From NCBI GenBank assembly GCA_028285305.1, contig JANQPV010000068.1, positions 1 to 64,000 of the forward strand: a DNA stretch of 64,000 bases. Direction: 5' to 3'. The notes under the pieces were generated by a model, which had not been told where the DNA came from, did not search any database, and was given only the letters and a program-made list of their open reading frames with translations. Of the stretch, positions 40,314 to 49,298 are shown one piece after another (within the stretch, counting starts at the first letter, position 1; every line of letters starts with the position of its first letter). This stretch comes from Alphaproteobacteria bacterium. Its GTDB lineage: Bacteria; Pseudomonadota; Alphaproteobacteria; SMXP01. A program made the translations under genes and the position numbers.

Positions 40314-41834
40314 TTACCGTGCGACTTGCTTGCCGACAAAGTCCTTGAACTTTTCTGTGTACGGAGGACGGATCATATCCATCAGTTCACGCGACGTTTG
40401 CCGGTATATGGCCTTTGCGTGACTGAATGTTTTGAAGCCGTCTCGCCCATGATACGCACCCATGCCGCTGGGGCCAACACCGCCAAACGGCAGGTCCTCC
40501 TGGCCCACATGCATGATGACATCATTTACGGTAACGCCGCCTGAGGTCGTGTGACTGAGCACTTTGTCGTGTTCGACCGAGCTCGCATCCCCGAAGTAAT
40601 AGAGACCCAACGGCCTGGGATGATCATTGATGTAATCGATCGCTTCATCCACCCGGCTGTAAGTCTTCACCGGCATGATGGGGCCAAATATTTCGTCCTG
40701 CATAATGGTCATATCATCAGTCGGGTTCACGATCAGATGCGGTGCGATCTTATGATGTTCTTGTTGGGACAAGTCTTCATTGGCCGGATTGATTTCGATG
40801 ACTTCGGCGCCCTTTGAACGCGCGTCCTCCAGATATCCCATGATCCGGTCATAGTGGCGTTGATTAACAACCGAGGTGTAATCGGGATTGTCCTTCAAGG
40901 TCGGGTATAGTTTGCGTGTGGCCGTCTGCGCGGCGCTGACAAATGCATCGGCCTTTCCCTCCGGGACGAAGGTATAGTCAGGGGCCAAACAAATCTGGCC
41001 CGCGTTCAATAACTTGCCCGCCATAATCCGGGTTCCCGCGACATCCACATCGGCCGTTTCGGACACGATGACCGGCGATTTGCCGCCCAGTTCCAGCGTT
41101 ACGGGCACGAGATTTTCGGATGCGGCCCGCATCACATGTTTGGCCACAGACGTGGCACCGGTAAACAACATGTGGTCGAACGGAAGCCTCGAGAATGCCG
41201 CTCCCACTTCCGGACCGCCCGTGACCACCGCAACTTCGTCTTCGTCATAGACTTCACGAATGAGCCGCGCCATGGCTTCGGACGTTGCAGGCGTATACTC
41301 AGACGGCTTGATCATTGTGCGATTGCCGGCGGCAAAGATACCCGCTAAAGGCGTAAACGTGAGATTAACCGGAAAATTCCAAGGACTGATCACACCGATG
41401 GTGCCAAGGGGCTGGTACCGGATGTAAGCTCGCGACCCCAGGAGCCCCAAAGGAAACTGCACAGAACGGCGCTCATCTTTCACCCAAGAGGCCAGGTGCT
41501 TCTTGGCGTGTTTGAGTGCGGCAATCGAGCCCGCGATATCGGTGAACATGGACTGGTCCTTGGAGCGGTGTCCAAAATCGCTACACATTGCATCAACGAA
41601 CTCGTCTGCGTGGTCGACCAGGAGACCGATCGCACGGTCCAGCCAATCCTTGCGACGCTCAACGCGGGGCGGACCGTCAGCAATGTGCGCTTTGTGCTGG
41701 CGCTCCAGAATCGACAACATTGCGGCTTCAACCGAGTCGTTTGCCGAACTCCCATTGGCTTTTTGGCTGGACACTGAGGGCCCTGGCTCCGGGGCGATCG
41801 GATTGGTTTGAGATTGTTCAGGCTCCATGGTCAT
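40314..41834 (-). CDS. Aldehyde dehydrogenase, coniferyl-aldehyde dehydrogenase-like
   Basis: A 506-residue NAD(P)-dependent aldehyde dehydrogenase with an unusual Ser/Pro-rich N-terminal extension (about 30 residues). Core motifs are SPWNFPVNLTFTPLAGIFAAGNR, TLELGGKSPVIV with the catalytic Glu, NAGQICLAPDY with the catalytic Cys, and EIFGPIMPV. The NAGQICLAPDY form and the C-terminal SGMGAYHGRDGFKTFSH are typical of coniferyl-aldehyde dehydrogenases and the long-chain fatty aldehyde group. Fatty aldehyde oxidation would fit the surrounding lipid genes; this is inference. Confidence 0.9.
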   Translation of the reverse strand: MTMEPEQSQTNPIAPEPGPSVSSQKANGSSANDSVEAAMLSILERQHKAHIADGPPRVERRKDWLDRAIGLLVDHADEFVDAMCSDFGHRSKDQSMFTDIAGSIAALKHAKKHLASWVKDERRSVQFPLGLLGSRAYIRYQPLGTIGVISPWNFPVNLTFTPLAGIFAAGNRTMIKPSEYTPATSEAMARLIREVYDEDEVAVVTGGPEVGAAFSRLPFDHMLFTGATSVAKHVMRAASENLVPVTLELGGKSPVIVSETADVDVAGTRIMAGKLLNAGQICLAPDYTFVPEGKADAFVSAAQTATRKLYPTLKDNPDYTSVVNQRHYDRIMGYLEDARSKGAEVIEINPANEDLSQQEHHKIAPHLIVNPTDDMTIMQDEIFGPIMPVKTYSRVDEAIDYINDHPRPLGLYYFGDASSVEHDKVLSHTTSGGVTVNDVIMHVGQEDLPFGGVGPSGMGAYHGRDGFKTFSHAKAIYRQTSRELMDMIRPPYTEKFKDFVGKQVAR

Positions 41835-42039
41835 GGTGGCTTCCTTCTCGGTGAAACGTAAAGACTTTCTTAGCGGCTGTGATGGCAGCTCTACTCATAA
41901 TTGCAAGCAGCCGCAGCCCGCGACTCAATATCTAAGAACCTGGCACTATTCCTACTAATTCTTGAGGCGTTTACCAGTTTTTTTCGAAATTCTTCTACGC
42001 TGAAAATCGCGTCAAGTCGTTGTCCATGTGGAGTTCGTA

Positions 42040-43113
42040 ATGCACTACTTAGAAGATTTCATGGTAGCCAAAGAGTATGGCCAACAAACCTTTGAAAAGC
42101 TGGTCGAACTCAACATTGCGCCCACTCCACAAAACTTTGAAATCTGGTACAGCTGGGTCTCCAACCGCATTCCAAAATTGAAGAAAGACCTTGACGCCCT
42201 TATCGCGAGCAACCTTCCCTATACCGAAAACGTCGCGAATGAACTCTATGAGCAATATTTCGTAAGCAACGCCGAAGCGAGTGCGACCGTGCTTGAGGTT
42301 GGCGACCGCCTGCAAATCCAGTTGGACGCCATGATGGAGAATATCGCATCAGCAACCGCAGACACGTCTGCCTATGGTTCGACCCTCGCCGAAGCGGGCG
42401 GCCAGCTTGCCAAATTGCAGGACGGCGAAGGCGCGGCTTCTATGATCGAAACGCTGGTGACGGCCACTCATAAGATGCAGTCACGGACTGCGGAGTTGGA
42501 AAAGCGTCTGGAGGACTCAAACAACGAAGTCAAAGACCTCCGATCAGATTTGGATACCATTCGAAAAGAAGCCCTTACCGACCAGCTCACTGCACTTCCG
42601 AATCGGAAAGCGTTCGATCAGGTCATGCAGAACGAAACGGCCCGAGCGCTCGAAAGCAAATCCGATTTGTGCCTACTGTTTACCGATATTGATCACTTCA
42701 AGAAATTCAACGACACTTGGGGCCACCAAACGGGCGACAATGTTCTGCGCCTGGTTGCCCGTACTCTGCAAAACAATACCAAGGGTCAAGACACGCCTGC
42801 CCGATATGGGGGCGAAGAATTTGCCGTTGTTCTTCCCAACACGGACATCGTAAATGCTGAGAAGCTGGCTGACCAATTGCGTACGAGCGTGAAATCAAAA
42901 AAGCTCCAACGTAAATCCACCGGTGAAGACTTGGGCAATGTCACTATCTCCATCGGGGTTGCACAATATAAACCCGGTGAGCCCGTAGAGGATTTTGTTC
43001 ACCGGGCGGACACATGTCTGTACGCAGCCAAGCGCGCCGGACGGGATCGGGTGATCTGCGAAGGCGCCGAAGAACTCGGTCTCGTGGAAGACCTAAAGAA
43101 AGGGGCGGCCTAA
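42040..43113 (+). CDS. GGDEF-domain diguanylate cyclase
   Basis: A 357-residue protein that makes cyclic di-GMP. The N-terminal 150 residues are helical and unrecognised (starting HYLEDFMVAKEYGQQTFEKL), followed by a coiled-coil linker and a GGDEF domain from about residue 185: DQLTALPNRKAFDQ, FTDIDHFKKFND and the active site ARYGGEEFAVVLP. The residues five positions before GGEEF read KGQD, so the usual inhibitory RxxD site is only partly kept (Lys for Arg). No transmembrane segment is seen, so it is probably cytosolic. The ATG at 42040 is preferred over the GTG at 42028. Confidence 0.92.
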   Translation: MHYLEDFMVAKEYGQQTFEKLVELNIAPTPQNFEIWYSWVSNRIPKLKKDLDALIASNLPYTENVANELYEQYFVSNAEASATVLEVGDRLQIQLDAMMENIASATADTSAYGSTLAEAGGQLAKLQDGEGAASMIETLVTATHKMQSRTAELEKRLEDSNNEVKDLRSDLDTIRKEALTDQLTALPNRKAFDQVMQNETARALESKSDLCLLFTDIDHFKKFNDTWGHQTGDNVLRLVARTLQNNTKGQDTPARYGGEEFAVVLPNTDIVNAEKLADQLRTSVKSKKLQRKSTGEDLGNVTISIGVAQYKPGEPVEDFVHRADTCLYAAKRAGRDRVICEGAEELGLVEDLKKGAA

Positions 43114-43220
43114 TCTCGCGTAGAGGTTCGGCCTGGGGTCCGCCGGACTGTGTGCTGCGCGTGTTAAATGGATCGTGCCGCTAACTGCTGCTTGAAATGA
43201 CCATTCCCAGATCGTATTTG

Positions 43221-43241
43221 TTGATAGTAATTAGCTATCAA
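43221..43241 (+). promoter_or_regulatory. OxyR-like/LysR-type binding site
   Basis: TTGATAG-N7-CTATCAA is a perfect inverted repeat located 28 bp before the OxyR-like start codon. Inside it is ATAG-N7-CTAT, which matches half of the OxyR consensus pattern (ATAG-N7-CTAT). Further ATAG units follow at 43241-43244 and 43248-43251. Its position is compatible with autoregulation. Confidence 0.6.
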
Positions 43242-43268
43242 TAGCCAATAGATTTGGGAGGTTCTTCT

Positions 43269-44204
43269 ATGGCTGATCAAGCTTTACCCACAATCCGGCA
43301 GCTCAGATACTTAACAGCGATCGCGGAGACCAAGCACTTTCGCCGAGCTGCCGAGCTTATGGGTGTCAGCCAGCCTTCGCTCAGCGCTCAACTGCAAACC
43401 CTGGAAGAGCTTCTTGGTGCGCGCCTCGTGGAAAGAAGCCGCGCGGGCGTCGCGCTGACGCCTTTGGGTCGCGAAGTTGTTGAGCGGTCCAATATCGTGC
43501 TTGAAGAGGTTCAGGGTATTGTCGATTTTGCCTCCGTCGCCAGCCATGGCCTCACTGGCACTATTCGTTTGGGGGCAAAGCCCACTCTAGGCCCTTATCT
43601 CCTACCCCATGTGGTGGCTCGGCTGCATCGCCGGCACAAAGACCTAAAGCTCTATGTGCGAGAGAGTTCACCTCGGGAATTGGAGCAAGAGCTCAATGCC
43701 GGACTTCACGATCTCATTCTCGCTCAATTGCCAATCGTGGGACAAGACTTCGTTACCGAGAGCCTCTTTCGCGAGCCTCTCTTCCTGGCGATGGCATCGG
43801 ACCATCCACTTGCTGCCAAAACCGAAGTCACCGCATCCGACCTTAAAGGCCTCGGCGTGCTTTCGCTGAGCCCGCAATACCACCTCTATGACCAGATCGC
43901 GACACTGTGCGACAGTTTTGGTGCCTCGCTGCTGCGAGACTATGAGGGAACGAGTCTCGATGCGCTTCGTCAAATGGTCGGCATGGGAATGGGCGTTACT
44001 TTTTTGCCCGCGCTTTATGTGCAAACTGAGATTCCGGCCCGCGGCGATGTTGTCGTGAAACGCCTCAAAGGAAGAGACATATACAGGGTTTGTGGATTGG
44101 CTTGGCGCAAGTCTGCGGGGAGAGTCGCTGCCTATCACCAAATAGCCGAGATCATGAAAGACGTAGCGTCTAAACGCTTCAAGGATTTGCGCGTCGAAGC
44201 CTGA
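43269..44204 (+). CDS. LysR-family regulator, OxyR-like without the peroxidatic cysteine
   Basis: A 311-residue LysR regulator. The N-terminal helix-turn-helix reads RQLRYLTAIAETKHFRRAAELMGVSQPSLSAQLQTLEELLG (residues 10-50), close to OxyR. The C-terminal domain follows the OxyR pattern, including SLDALRQMV and the VTFLPAL segment. OxyR's peroxidatic Cys position (C-L-R-D-Q) reads H-L-Y-D-Q here (His205), while the resolving-Cys position is kept as Cys214. The classical disulfide switch is therefore absent. The ATG at 43269 has GGGAGG upstream. A sodium-channel operon starts 107 bp downstream on the same strand. Confidence 0.88.
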   Translation: MADQALPTIRQLRYLTAIAETKHFRRAAELMGVSQPSLSAQLQTLEELLGARLVERSRAGVALTPLGREVVERSNIVLEEVQGIVDFASVASHGLTGTIRLGAKPTLGPYLLPHVVARLHRRHKDLKLYVRESSPRELEQELNAGLHDLILAQLPIVGQDFVTESLFREPLFLAMASDHPLAAKTEVTASDLKGLGVLSLSPQYHLYDQIATLCDSFGASLLRDYEGTSLDALRQMVGMGMGVTFLPALYVQTEIPARGDVVVKRLKGRDIYRVCGLAWRKSAGRVAAYHQIAEIMKDVASKRFKDLRVEA

Positions 44205-44311
44205 CGCGTCCTTCCATTCTATTTTCCTATCAAACTTTCGTTAATGATCGCATTTACATACCTCTCGGCTCTCCTATTTCTTGGTATGCAAGAAAAAAGT
44301 CGAGGTCTGAA

Positions 44312-44452
44312 ATGAGTTTGGTATTCGCCGCGCTAGCGATCATTGCTCTGTACGCTCTTTCTATTTGGTACGGGTCGCATACCGTTCGAAAATCCCGTGT
44401 GCCCGTCCGGGTACAAACTCAACCGCGCCGACAGATAGGCCGCTCCGGATAA
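44312..44452 (+). CDS. 46-residue single-pass membrane protein upstream of the sodium channel
   Basis: A short gene with one hydrophobic helix (residues 2-20, VFAALAIIALYALSIWY) and a strongly basic C-terminal tail (HTVRKSRVPVRV, PRRQIGR). A GAGG site precedes the ATG. The stop codon is one base before the channel start (TAA-A-ATG), so the two are almost certainly co-transcribed and coupled. The topology suggests an inner membrane peptide with a cytosolic basic tail. No family recognised; it may assist the channel (inference). Confidence 0.65.
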   Translation: MSLVFAALAIIALYALSIWYGSHTVRKSRVPVRVQTQPRRQIGRSG

Positions 44453-44453
44453 A

Positions 44454-45332
44454 ATGACCAACCTTGGCTTCGGAGTGAGTGCCGGAGCCAAGGCCACCCT
44501 CTCCGCGCTTCGAGCAAAACTCAGACACATACTGGAAAGCCCCTATGCTGCGGGCTTTATCACCAGTGTAATTCTCATAAATGCCGTTGTTCTGGGGCTT
44601 GAAACCTGGCCTGCGGCGATGAACGCTGCCGGACCCGCTCTGCTGCTTGCCGACCAAATCGCCCTGTCGATATTCGTGGTCGAGCTCACTTTGAAAATAT
44701 TTGCTTTTGGTCCCGGTTTCTTTCGAAAGGGTTGGAACCTTTTTGATTTTGCTCTGGTGAGTTTGGCACTCCTGCCGGCAACGCATTCTTTCTCGGCTCT
44801 GCGGGCATTGAGAATCCTGCGCGCCTTCCGGCTTATTTCAACCATTCCGCAACTTCGGCGGGTCGTTGAATCACTCCTGTCGGCTCTGCCTGGGATGGGC
44901 GCGGTCATGGTCCTTCTCGCTCTCGTATTTTACGTCTCTGCGGTTTTGGCAACGAAGATGTTCGCAGCGGAGTTTCCGGAATGGTTCGGATCCATTGGCG
45001 CCTCACTCTACTCTCTCTTCCAGATCATGACGCTTGAGAGCTGGTCCATGGGGATCGTCCGGCCGGTCATGCAAGAATACCCCTGGGCCTGGGCGTTCTT
45101 TGTACCCTTTATTGTCGTGACAAGTCTCACCGTACTGAACTTATTCATCGCACTGATCGTAAGCGCATTACAAGAACAGGATACAAGCCGATCCGTGCCG
45201 CACGAGAATGCGGGACGCGAAGACGGCCTAAAGCAAGACATTGAGGCGCTCTCAGTGAAGGTGAGCGAACTGCAAGAAGAAATCGCGAAAATGCGTCTTC
45301 AGCTTGACGGCTCTGGATCGGGTACATCATGA
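44454..45332 (+). CDS. Bacterial voltage-gated sodium channel (NaChBac/NavMs type)
   Basis: A 292-residue single-domain six-helix ion channel. S4 is near residues 113-137 with regularly spaced Arg (ALRALRILRAFRLIS), the selectivity filter TLESWSM is at residues 193-199, S6 is about 215-240 and a C-terminal coiled coil spans about 259-285 (ALSVKVSELQEEIAKMRL). The filter TLESW defines Na+-selective bacterial channels that assemble as homotetramers. It is the middle gene of an operon with a 46-residue membrane peptide and an unknown multi-pass protein that overlaps its stop by four bases. Confidence 0.94.
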   Translation: MTNLGFGVSAGAKATLSALRAKLRHILESPYAAGFITSVILINAVVLGLETWPAAMNAAGPALLLADQIALSIFVVELTLKIFAFGPGFFRKGWNLFDFALVSLALLPATHSFSALRALRILRAFRLISTIPQLRRVVESLLSALPGMGAVMVLLALVFYVSAVLATKMFAAEFPEWFGSIGASLYSLFQIMTLESWSMGIVRPVMQEYPWAWAFFVPFIVVTSLTVLNLFIALIVSALQEQDTSRSVPHENAGREDGLKQDIEALSVKVSELQEEIAKMRLQLDGSGSGTS

Positions 45333-46180
45333 ATTCGGACACTTCAACACTGACACATTCCACTGGATCTTCTTGGCACAGTGTCCTGGCGAGATTGTTT
45401 CCAAAAAGCGTTCAAGCCCTTGAGGACCGAAAGAACTATGCAGTAACGGATCGCGGTTCGGTCGAAAAATCAACTGAAACGGGAAACTGGGAGCTACAGT
45501 TCTATCCGCGCACGGACGCTCCGAATGTTGAAACAATTGCTTTGGACGAGCTGCGTACGGGCCGTTCTCCCAATGACAATGCCCTGAAAATTTGGGTAAC
45601 GATTATCTTACTGGTCCAAGCACTCTTGCCAGTGGCCTTGTTCTTTGCCGACGAAGTTTTCAGCGGGCTGGGTCTCGGTGCCCTTGTTTCCACCATTATG
45701 GAAACGGGCGTGTTGCCGGCGCTTATCATCTCGGCAAACATTTTTGTCTTTACGTCGCTGCGTGTGCTCTTCACTCGCATGGATGCGAACTGGTCAAATT
45801 CGATTCGCAGCTTTTTGGAAAACGACACCAAGAACAAGATGCAAGGTATCCGCGCATGTTTGTTGGAGTTTCGCCGGTTCGTGAAATGGCGGCGTTACAT
45901 GTCGTACCTGCAAGCCGGGGTGATCGCCTTGTTCATCATGCAAATCCCCATTCTCTTTCTTCTCCCGGCAGCGTTTGCCAACTCAGAATTCGGATGGACT
46001 TGGCACGAACTCGCCGCTGTTGCGGCCATGCTGTTCATTCAGGTGCCGAGCATTATCGCTTTCCTCTATCTGCGTTGGTTTTATACAGATGGACGGGATC
46101 CAACTGTTCAACTGTGCGTCATGCTCGCAGAAGAGCGGATCGACTATGTCGCCTTGCTGAGACGCGGTGCAAGAGATTAA
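45329..46180 (+). CDS. Unknown membrane protein encoded with the sodium channel
   Basis: A 283-residue protein with an 85-residue soluble N-terminus and about four to five membrane segments (86-106, 112-147, 193-216, 226-251), plus a basic cytosolic loop at about 150-192 (KMQGIRACLLEFRRFVKWRR). Its ATG overlaps the channel stop (ATGA), so translation is probably coupled. No family recognised. It may be an accessory subunit, a regulator or a partner in motility or osmoregulation; none of this is shown by sequence. Confidence 0.75.
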   Translation: MNSDTSTLTHSTGSSWHSVLARLFPKSVQALEDRKNYAVTDRGSVEKSTETGNWELQFYPRTDAPNVETIALDELRTGRSPNDNALKIWVTIILLVQALLPVALFFADEVFSGLGLGALVSTIMETGVLPALIISANIFVFTSLRVLFTRMDANWSNSIRSFLENDTKNKMQGIRACLLEFRRFVKWRRYMSYLQAGVIALFIMQIPILFLLPAAFANSEFGWTWHELAAVAAMLFIQVPSIIAFLYLRWFYTDGRDPTVQLCVMLAEERIDYVALLRRGARD

Positions 46181-46285
46181 CCCTTTTCATAGCCAAACCC
46201 TATCAAAGATTTATTCGTTCTCGGTTGCTTGTCGCGTCTCCGCTCCCATTTAAGGGGAGATTGTCGAGAAGTTTTCGGAGGCTCA

Positions 46286-46459
46286 GTGGTTACGTTCGAT
46301 TCATATTATTTGGCGAACGGATTTGTTGGCCGGTCACGGTCGACCGCCCGAAAACGCGCGCTAAGAGCGGTTGCGGGAAAACATGAGAGCCCGAAGCCGA
46401 CACCTAAACGGTCCTGGACAGCCAAGCATTTGGGGAGAGAAGTAGATGTCATGGTTTGA
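46286..46459 (+). CDS. Possible 57-residue basic small protein
   Basis: A GTG start preceded by GGAG at good spacing (TCGGAGGCTCA-GTG) opens a frame of 57 codons, rich in Arg and Lys (GRSRSTARKRALRAV). The protein would be soluble and basic. It overlaps the next small frame by 14 bases. The Shine-Dalgarno is the main support; I have no family match. Confidence 0.4.
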   Translation: MVTFDSYYLANGFVGRSRSTARKRALRAVAGKHESPKPTPKRSWTAKHLGREVDVMV

Positions 46460-46679
46460 ACAAGTATCTAGCGTTGTTGCCGTTTTTCTGGGTACGCTCT
46501 CTATGGAGACGCCTCCAACAAGTCACCAATTGGACGCCGCCCCAATAATGCTGCAGGCCGAATGCAGTCATCCCATAAACGAATGGGCACCTGGCGCTCT
46601 GATCTTTGCCGCAAGACAAGTCTTGCCTGGCCAAAGTCCCAATTTGAATCAAAATCGTTCGTCCTGTGCGATTGTTTAG
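46446..46679 (+). CDS. Possible 77-residue small exported protein
   Basis: The ATG is preceded by GGGGAGAGAAG. The first 22 residues form a weak hydrophobic segment (VSSVVAVFLGTLSM), the rest is polar with two cysteines. It could be a short secreted or membrane protein or a chance frame in a 676-bp stretch that otherwise has no strong gene. Confidence is low. Confidence 0.3.
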   Translation: MSWFEQVSSVVAVFLGTLSMETPPTSHQLDAAPIMLQAECSHPINEWAPGALIFAARQVLPGQSPNLNQNRSSCAIV

Positions 46680-46855
46680 CTCGGGGAGTAAGGAATTCGT
46701 TGAGCTCTGCCCCAACTCTTCTGGCCGCCAGCAATTTTGATCATGTTTTCCAATTAAAGATAAGATATCAATCGGATTGACTTATTAAACAGATTTGACC
46801 ATATTCGCCGATAAGAATTTACGAGGTCCGGGAATTAGTAAAATGGGAAAAGACT

Positions 46856-47377
46856 ATGTCTGAAAGTATGCAAATCGAAACAGATATTGAATTCAAACGC
46901 CCATTCGAAAAGGTGGTCAAAAAAAGTCGGTCTATTTCCAAGACGAAAAAAAAGCCGGCTGAAAAAAACCTCTTGCCACGGAACAAAGAAGGGGATGCCA
47001 AGCAAAACAACATCAGAGGCATTGATGTGTACGTTGTTTGGGGCAAGGACGGGGAACAATTGGCACGTGCCCTTGACAATGCGACCGACTGGTCACCTTT
47101 TGAGCTCGTAGACGTCATAGAAGTGGGTCGATCCCCTGATGCTCTTCAGGACGAAGCGCCTCAGTCGGAATGGCTCTGCCGGTTCAGGTTCGAAGGGTGG
47201 TCAAAAGAAGCGCGCCCTTACGTGGCAAGCCTGCTTGAAGGCATTGATGTGGTTGCCCCCTGGACACTCTCCGAAAAGATATTTTCAAACACGGAGGAAG
47301 CTAACCTCTTAAAAGAAGCCCAGCGGTCGCCCTCCCCGCGCTCTCTGCGTGATAGACCGCGTTTAAGAGCCGCCTGA
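46856..47377 (+). CDS. Hypothetical protein with basic N-terminus
   Basis: A 173-residue frame with GGGAAAAG before the ATG. Residues 15-45 are rich in Lys (KKSRSISKTKKKPAEK), probably disordered; residues 55-140 look folded, with alternating hydrophobic strands (DVYVVWGKDGEQLARAL, EWLCRFRFEGWSKEARPYVASLL). The C-terminus is again polar. The gene is followed 38 bp later by a strong terminator, supporting a real transcript. No family recognised. Confidence 0.6.
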   Translation: MSESMQIETDIEFKRPFEKVVKKSRSISKTKKKPAEKNLLPRNKEGDAKQNNIRGIDVYVVWGKDGEQLARALDNATDWSPFELVDVIEVGRSPDALQDEAPQSEWLCRFRFEGWSKEARPYVASLLEGIDVVAPWTLSEKIFSNTEEANLLKEAQRSPSPRSLRDRPRLRAA

Positions 47378-47415
47378 CCTTTTCCATCCCCAACGTTAGG
47401 TCATGGTGACTCCAC

Positions 47416-47450
47416 GAAGTGGCGGCCTCGTCCGCCACTTCTTCTTTTTT
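47416..47450 (+). terminator. Rho-independent terminator
   Basis: A perfect 10-bp stem GAAGTGGCGG/CCGCCACTTC with a 6-base loop, followed by a T-rich run (TTCTTTTTT). It ends the transcription unit of the 173-residue hypothetical gene. Confidence 0.9.
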
Positions 47451-47482
47451 GCTCAACGAACTCTAGCTAGCTGGAGAACAGT

Positions 47483-47707
47483 ATGTACGCCGATGTGCTT
47501 AATCGAATTGACGAAGTCCTGAAGAAGGAACCGACTTCCGCTTCCGACGAGACTTTGAACGCTGAAAAATTCGGAGTGCTTGCAGGTTCGTTTGACCCGG
47601 GTATTGCCGGGTATACGGAGCTGCGTTTCGATCTCGAATCTCCAACACGTGCGAAAAAGCAACGTGCGCCGCGTTCGTTGCTTGCTGGGCTTGAGCCGAA
47701 TCCGTAA
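47483..47707 (+). CDS. Small hypothetical protein (74 residues)
   Basis: A short soluble protein with an amphipathic N-terminal helix (YADVLNRIDEVLKKE) and a basic C-terminus (RAKKQRAPRSL). The ATG is preceded by TGGAGAACA. It is bracketed by two strong rho-independent terminators, so it is probably a single-gene transcript, which supports it being real. No family recognised. Confidence 0.6.
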   Translation: MYADVLNRIDEVLKKEPTSASDETLNAEKFGVLAGSFDPGIAGYTELRFDLESPTRAKKQRAPRSLLAGLEPNP

Positions 47708-47740
47708 AACTCGTAAGCACTCGACTCAAACCTAAATTTG

Positions 47741-47765
47741 GCGCGGGCTTCGGTCCGCGCTTTTT
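47741..47765 (+). terminator. Rho-independent terminator with UUCG loop
   Basis: GCGCGGG and TCCGCGC form a seven-pair stem (one G-U pair) closed by C(UUCG)G, followed by TTTTT. This very stable hairpin ends the 74-residue gene and lies 21 bp before the sbtA start. Confidence 0.9.
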
Positions 47766-47785
47766 GTGCGCAAAGAATAAGAAAA

Positions 47786-48775
47786 ATGATTGATCAAATC
47801 GCGCAAATCGCCACGGCGAACCTTCTCTCACCCATGGTCCTCTTCTTCGCGCTCGGCGTGGCGGCGGCATTGGCAAAATCAGATCTTGTCATACCTGAAG
47901 CGGCCGCCAAGGCCATGGCACTCTATCTGATGCTTGCAATCGGTTTCAAAGGCGGTGTGGAAGTGGCAGCGCACGGTCTTGATGCCCGGCTCCTGGGAAC
48001 GCTTCTGGCTGGAGCTTTCCTAAGCGCCACAGTGCCGCTCATCGGCTTCGCTCTTCTTCGGCTCACGGCAAATCTCTCAGCCTACGATGCGGCAGCGATC
48101 GCTGCTCACTATGGTTCAATCAGTATTGTCACGTTCGTCGCGGCGAGCCAGACTCTGGAACATATGGGTATTCCTTATGAAGGATATCTCGTCGCCGTGG
48201 CTGCCGTTATGGAAACACCGGCGATTTTGGTCGCCCTCTGGCTCGCGTCCCGGGCGGCACCCGGCCAAGATGATGTTCAGGTGCAAGGGAAAAACGGGGT
48301 TCTGAGGGAAATCGCCCTGAATGGGTCAATCGTCCTGTTGGTCGGCTCGTTTTTCATCGGCGCCGCCTCAGGCAAAGAAGGCATGGAGGCCGTTTCACCC
48401 TTTATTGTCGATCCGTTCCAAGGTGTATTGTGCCTCTTTCTTCTCGACATGGGCCTGCTCGCAGGGCGCAGCCTCACTCAAGGACGCCGTTCTCTCACAC
48501 CTGCAGTCCTCGCTTTTGGCGCCTATATGCCCCTTCTATCGGCCTCATTCGCCGCTCTTTTCGCCTGGCTGCTTGGCTTGTCTGTGGGTGGATCGGCGCT
48601 CTTGATTACCTTGGCGGCGAGCGCGTCCTATATTGCTGTGCCCGCGGCTTTGCGTCTGGCCTTGCCCCAGGCCAATCCAGCGGTCTACCTGACCATGTCC
48701 CTCGGAGTAACGTTCCCCCTCAACCTTGCGCTGGGCATTCCGCTTTACATATTTATTGCTACAATGTTCAGTTAG
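47786..48775 (+). CDS. sbtA: SbtA-family sodium-dependent bicarbonate transporter
   Basis: A 329-residue membrane protein with about ten hydrophobic helices, of the SbtA (DUF897) family. Visible family segments are LAIGFKGGVEVA, the AHYGSISIVTF segment and LCLFLLDMGLLAG, with small-residue-rich helices. In cyanobacteria SbtA takes up HCO3- with Na+. The next gene encodes an SbtB-like PII protein 12 bp downstream, the standard regulatory partner. The ATG at 47786 starts after the terminator; the open frame upstream is not translated. Confidence 0.92.
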   Translation: MIDQIAQIATANLLSPMVLFFALGVAAALAKSDLVIPEAAAKAMALYLMLAIGFKGGVEVAAHGLDARLLGTLLAGAFLSATVPLIGFALLRLTANLSAYDAAAIAAHYGSISIVTFVAASQTLEHMGIPYEGYLVAVAAVMETPAILVALWLASRAAPGQDDVQVQGKNGVLREIALNGSIVLLVGSFFIGAASGKEGMEAVSPFIVDPFQGVLCLFLLDMGLLAGRSLTQGRRSLTPAVLAFGAYMPLLSASFAALFAWLLGLSVGGSALLITLAASASYIAVPAALRLALPQANPAVYLTMSLGVTFPLNLALGIPLYIFIATMFS

Positions 48776-48787
48776 GGAAATGTCCTT

Positions 48788-49099
48788 ATGGATACCTATC
48801 CAAAGAAACGGCTTGAAATCATTGTTGAAGCCCCCGCCCTCAATAGGGTCCTTAATGCCTTAGATCAGGCGGACGTGTCCGGGTACACTGTTTTGCCGGC
48901 ATTGGCGGGAAAGGGCTCAAAGGGCCCCTGGCAGCGCGAGGGCCTTGTCTCGGCCGCAGGCAAAATGGTGATGATTGTTTGTATTCTGGACGAGGAGCTC
49001 GCGGGCAAGGCGCTCGACTCGGTCTTTGACCTCATCACGCATCGTATCGGCATCGTCACCATCTCTAACGTCGAAGTCGTGCGAGACAAGCGGTTCTAA
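48788..49099 (+). CDS. sbtB: SbtB-like PII-family regulator
   Basis: A 103-residue PII-like protein with the ferredoxin-like ordering of LEIIVEAPALNRVLNALDQADVSGYTVLPALAGKGS, then VMIVCILDEELAGKALDSVFDLI and GIVTISNVEVV. Cyanobacterial SbtB binds adenine nucleotides and controls SbtA. The C-terminal CGPxGC redox motif of some cyanobacterial SbtB proteins is absent. The gene follows sbtA by 12 bp, so the pair is conserved as a unit. Confidence 0.88.
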   Translation: MDTYPKKRLEIIVEAPALNRVLNALDQADVSGYTVLPALAGKGSKGPWQREGLVSAAGKMVMIVCILDEELAGKALDSVFDLITHRIGIVTISNVEVVRDKRF

Positions 49100-49298
49100 G
49101 GGCTTCCAAATCCTCGTTCAATCCAATTGAGGACGGCGCAGATCGCCCTCCATGTCCGACTCGGCAGCTAACTGACAATTTGTCAGTTTTGTCTTGCGCG
49201 CCGCTGACTTTGCTCTAAAGTCGCGTGCGTGTGCCGCGAGACTGGAACTCGCTTTGGTTCTTTGCAGGCGGCCGGGCAACAACGGCGAGGAGAGACTT

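Follow-up and report, generated by a model that had tools for sequence, protein, structure and literature searches.

Within the window, the whole 64,000-nucleotide stretch of an alphaproteobacterial contig analysed here, a voltage-gated Na+ channel, homotetrameric and of NavMs type, and a four-segment membrane protein specific to this lineage are probably encoded together in one short gene string. On the + strand, a 46-codon ORF (44312..44452) is followed by the gene of a NavMs-like voltage-gated sodium channel (292 aa; 44454..45332) and by the gene of a 283-aa multi-pass protein (45329..46180). The 46-codon ORF ends 1 base before the channel start, and the 283-aa gene starts within the stop of the channel gene (ATGA, a 4-base overlap); the coordinates, the lengths of 46, 292 and 283 aa and the spacing given in the original prediction all hold. 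We favour the combination of a known channel with a lineage-specific protein because the channel is intact and has NavMs as its closest structure, and because the 283-aa gene is coding-like and overlaps the channel gene. It is further favoured because no partner was found at other NaV loci, some of which have unrelated soluble enzymes encoded just as tightly behind the channel.

The channel matched Pfam Ion_trans (PF00520, E 8.9e-44, residues 31-244), and its best PDB match was NavMs entry 6sx5 (E 5.5e-79, full alignment), and across the voltage sensor and pore 124 of 220 residues (56%) are identical to those of the NavMs construct. Its selectivity filter reads TLESWSM (MTLESWSM in the translation), S4 (RALRILRAFR) carries four arginines, one every third residue, and the C-terminus, read from the translation, shows a regular heptad repeat. 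Domain, structure match, filter and S4 confirm the NavMs-like channel with TLESWSM filter that had been predicted, and the sequence is unmistakably that of a standard BacNav (NavAb/NavMs-like) of divergent NavMs type, a predicted Na+ channel. With the NavMs/NavAb-like group it shares the six-segment single domain, the filter, the regular S4 arginines and the C-terminal heptads; it differs by ∼18 extra N-terminal residues and by its position on a long isolated branch (1.03 changes per column in a tree of 45 NaV rows). Its nearest relatives in the class genomes searched were 55-60% identical, no close orthologue was found among the genomes searched, and a search of the genome contigs with the channel gave one match, L007. 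NaV genes as such are common (detected at E<=1e-30 in 104 of the 385 class genomes), and the host genome encodes three, this channel and two paralogues. The third NaV of the host (L041:8105-8920, contig C45) also sits on a long branch and has the filter TLEGWVE, not TLESWSM, reminiscent of the AnclNav/CavMr group, whose filters have glycine at position 4 (PMC7041947). Bacterial sodium channels are described as homotetramers (PMC10761118). The channel at the locus studied here would function by itself, with a voltage sensor, pore and C-terminal coiled coil of its own, opening on depolarisation and admitting Na+.

With codon statistics trained on 32 long genes from the window, the 283-aa gene scored as coding-like at 0.109, well inside the range of the training genes (0.020-0.233) and above the out-of-frame values (at most -0.092). 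Hydropathy placed four segments near residues 86-106, 120-142, 198-218 and 230-252, behind an N-terminal region of ∼85 residues, in agreement with the multi-pass protein originally proposed. The loop between segments 2 and 3 holds 11 basic and 4 acidic residues and the short outer loops are both acidic; both ends are therefore predicted, by the positive-inside rule, to lie inside (N-in/C-in), with a basic cytoplasmic loop. An AlphaFold2 model made with no alignment was not reliable (mean pLDDT 50.6, pTM 0.32). The protein is single-copy in the host genome, and ∼900 sampled genomes (the order's four other genomes, 385 from the class, 399 from the phylum and some from three additional orders) returned only the protein itself and chance matches. 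Searches gave no family in Pfam, NCBIfam, PHROGs or PADLOC, no related PDB chain and no relatives on the plasmids or viral contigs searched; nor was there any sequence relation to known auxiliary subunits in Pfam, NCBIfam or the PDB. As had been anticipated, no known family covers the protein, which appears to be a lineage-specific orphan. Matches to Bax1-I (E 8), SLATT (0.74), a PHROG (0.07) and PDB VP25 (1.5) were at chance level. Two others, in G183 (E 0.006; antisense to another ORF) and in G831 (E 0.008, 18% identity; on a FliP-like protein, named by eye from its sequence), were rejected because a few such E-values are expected across hundreds of genomes. No Pfam match at E<=10 indicated membership of a FliP or MotA/ExbB-type family.

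Shine-Dalgarno matches are weak before both the channel gene and the 283-aa gene. Together with the ATGA overlap, this suggests translational coupling, in which ribosomes finishing the channel would re-initiate on the 283-aa gene and both proteins would be made together. The 283-aa protein would share the expression conditions of the channel and would not be a required subunit. Tight spacing is ordinary in the window: of 32 neighbouring gene pairs on the same strand, 9 allow a start within -8..+5 bases and 4 overlap by 4 bases. As such packing is normal both in the window and at other NaV loci, it says little about interaction. The operon of the original prediction is plausible on sequence grounds; what stood of it is a tight, probably translationally coupled pair of channel and 283-aa genes, and the 46-codon member is doubtful because its codon usage is not coding-like. 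Promoter and terminator scans around the locus gave signals at shuffle level only, and no Na+ riboswitch or other RNA element was matched in Rfam at E<=1 in 41800-49200. Upstream, a LysR-family regulator is encoded on the same strand (43254-44204), separated from the channel start by 249 bases; its nearest model, OxyR, gave 201.9 against a 329-bit cut-off, far below it. Downstream, 46856-47377 encodes a 173-aa protein that matches the C-terminal domain of bacterial isocitrate dehydrogenase below threshold (E 1.5e-4) and lacks the remaining parts of that enzyme. Beginning 1.5 kb downstream of the channel gene string, 47738-49099 holds the gene of an SbtA-like Na+-dependent bicarbonate transporter (Sbt_1 3e-110) and then that of a PII-like protein (1e-14), a known kind of transporter-regulator pair.

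At 32 other NaV loci, among them both host-genome paralogues and the channel of G003, a genome of the same family, we looked upstream for short hydrophobic ORFs and downstream for coupled genes. The membrane neighbours had originally been read as auxiliary or regulatory subunits, with conservation of the triplet beside NaV genes in relatives as the test. Neither the 283-aa protein nor the 46-codon ORF was present at any of the 32 loci, and the 283-aa protein was likewise absent from the ∼900 genomes. The auxiliary-subunit part of the original prediction is thus unsupported, failing its own conservation test in the genomes searched, and to call the neighbours channel subunits is only a guess. 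NaV genes elsewhere also stand in tight gene strings, with NhaA, TerC, GDPD, HAD, methyltransferase or type VI secretion genes as neighbours; none of these neighbourhoods has the 283-aa protein or the 46-codon ORF. An equally tight co-directional downstream gene (-4 to +3 bases) was found at 7 of the 32 loci, encoding a methyltransferase (the host paralogue on C35), a GDPD (two loci), a HAD hydrolase (two) or a second NaV (two). Because these are unrelated proteins or a second NaV, lying next to a channel gene is by itself weak evidence for a subunit. Unrelated genes are often neighbours in bacterial operons. Both this habit and the seven loci favour the view that the 283-aa protein is an independent membrane protein (a transporter, sensor or stress protein) merely sharing the operon, which we rate at slightly better than even odds, although no homologue with an independent function was seen. 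Such independence is the functional core of the combination favoured here, minus any coupling of function.

A role for the 283-aa protein as an auxiliary or regulatory subunit dedicated to this one channel, with a four-segment layout like that of CaV gamma, is unlikely. The overlap of the two genes, the four hydrophobic segments and the basic loop between segments 2 and 3 would suit such a role, and the CaV gamma subunit has four transmembrane segments (PMC10761118). The likeness consists of four membrane segments, here predicted, encoded as a separate protein; the 283-aa protein differs by its ∼85-residue N-terminal region and its basic loop, no sequence relation is detectable, and the resemblance is only a lead. 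Against a subunit, the protein was not conserved beside any other NaV examined, it is related in sequence to no family or PDB chain, its model (mean pLDDT 50.6) is not usable, and such spacing is common in the window and at other NaV loci. That it is a newly evolved dedicated BacNav subunit, possibly the first known and kept at a fixed ratio by translational coupling, looks decidedly unlikely. Across the ∼900 genomes, the 283-aa protein did not co-occur with the channel. Because no close channel orthologue was found among the genomes searched, the absence of partners indicates that they are lineage-specific, not that they do not interact. Had a partner arisen recently in the lineage of the channel, the pattern would be the same and the conservation test would miss it, and the long branch of the channel implies that its own lineage is unsampled. 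Both points count against the preferred combination of channel and lineage-specific protein, as does the fact that co-translated membrane proteins often interact. A literature search found no paper joining bacterial sodium channels, an auxiliary subunit and an operon, with most subscription journals outside its reach.

The status of the 46-codon ORF is uncertain: it is possibly a small membrane protein, a leader ORF, or not a gene. A GAGG Shine-Dalgarno (44302-44305) lies 6 nt before its ATG, and its translation has a hydrophobic N-terminal segment (peak 2.46) and a basic tail. Of the 46-residue single-pass peptide originally proposed, the ORF and its hydrophobic stretch were borne out; its codon usage, however, is not coding-like, since among stretches of its length its score falls at the 1st percentile of real coding sequence and at the 84th of out-of-frame sequence, and it showed no relatives within the same order and no family match. 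If translated at all, it would most likely act as an upstream ORF: ribosomes that terminate on it would load the channel start, which is weakly marked and lies one base further on. The odds are a little under even that this ORF arose by chance in the 249 bases preceding the channel and that its translation, if any, serves no purpose. Its codon statistics are non-coding and an ORF of at least 30 codons ended beside the channel in 16-22% of simulated upstream regions, but the good Shine-Dalgarno, the hydrophobicity and the stop abutting the channel start speak against chance. In simulation, the same ORF end combined with a hydrophobic stretch and a Shine-Dalgarno-like motif was rare (0.02-0.05% of upstream regions, in a test set up after the ORF had been seen). 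This rarity, the GAGG motif and the hydrophobic peak would fit a real small membrane protein with the channel as its binding partner; we nonetheless consider this improbable, given the codon usage, the lack of a relative in the order and the absence of a like short hydrophobic ORF beside the other NaV genes examined (n=32).

Some NaV loci elsewhere showed groupings of their own. Tandems of two full-length NaV genes were found at L026:1444-3254, L043:4944-6703, L044:4159-5963 and L045:4419-6238, and also at G881 C31 and G883 C370. Both genes of such a tandem have the TLESWSM filter and are ∼60% identical to each other, and in L025/L026, where examined in detail, they overlap by 4 bases (ATGA). 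The tandem is kept in at least four genomes of genus g69 (family f66), and a second genus of this family has its NaV genes as a close pair. Judged from these sequences, the f66 tandem is a possible natural heteromeric (multi-subunit) bacterial sodium channel and, because it is conserved, a better multi-subunit candidate than the pairing with the 283-aa protein. At L048:3910-5623, two divergent NaV-like genes form another tandem, separated by ∼20 bases; their filters read TFDDWIE and TLEGWAE. Type VI secretion clusters on Rhodobacterales plasmids (L036:2982-8740, L038:2672-8822 and L039:2675-8828) house one well-supported NaV clade, with tssH and a hypothetical gene on one side and the sheath gene on the other. 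At L031:211-2349 and L034:237-2298, an NhaA-type Na+/H+ antiporter gene directly precedes the NaV gene, ∼12-13 bases apart, a pairing that fits Na+ cycling.

Overall, the channel itself belongs to a known kind (BacNav), and the orphan falls in no family searched. What the locus contributes at present is a divergent channel of NavMs type together with an orphan membrane protein; it also makes plain that NaV genes commonly have tightly spaced neighbours, a feature uninformative in itself. Should the orphan prove to be a true subunit, channel modulation, at present studied with eukaryotic beta, gamma and alpha2-delta subunits, would gain a minimal model in bacteria.
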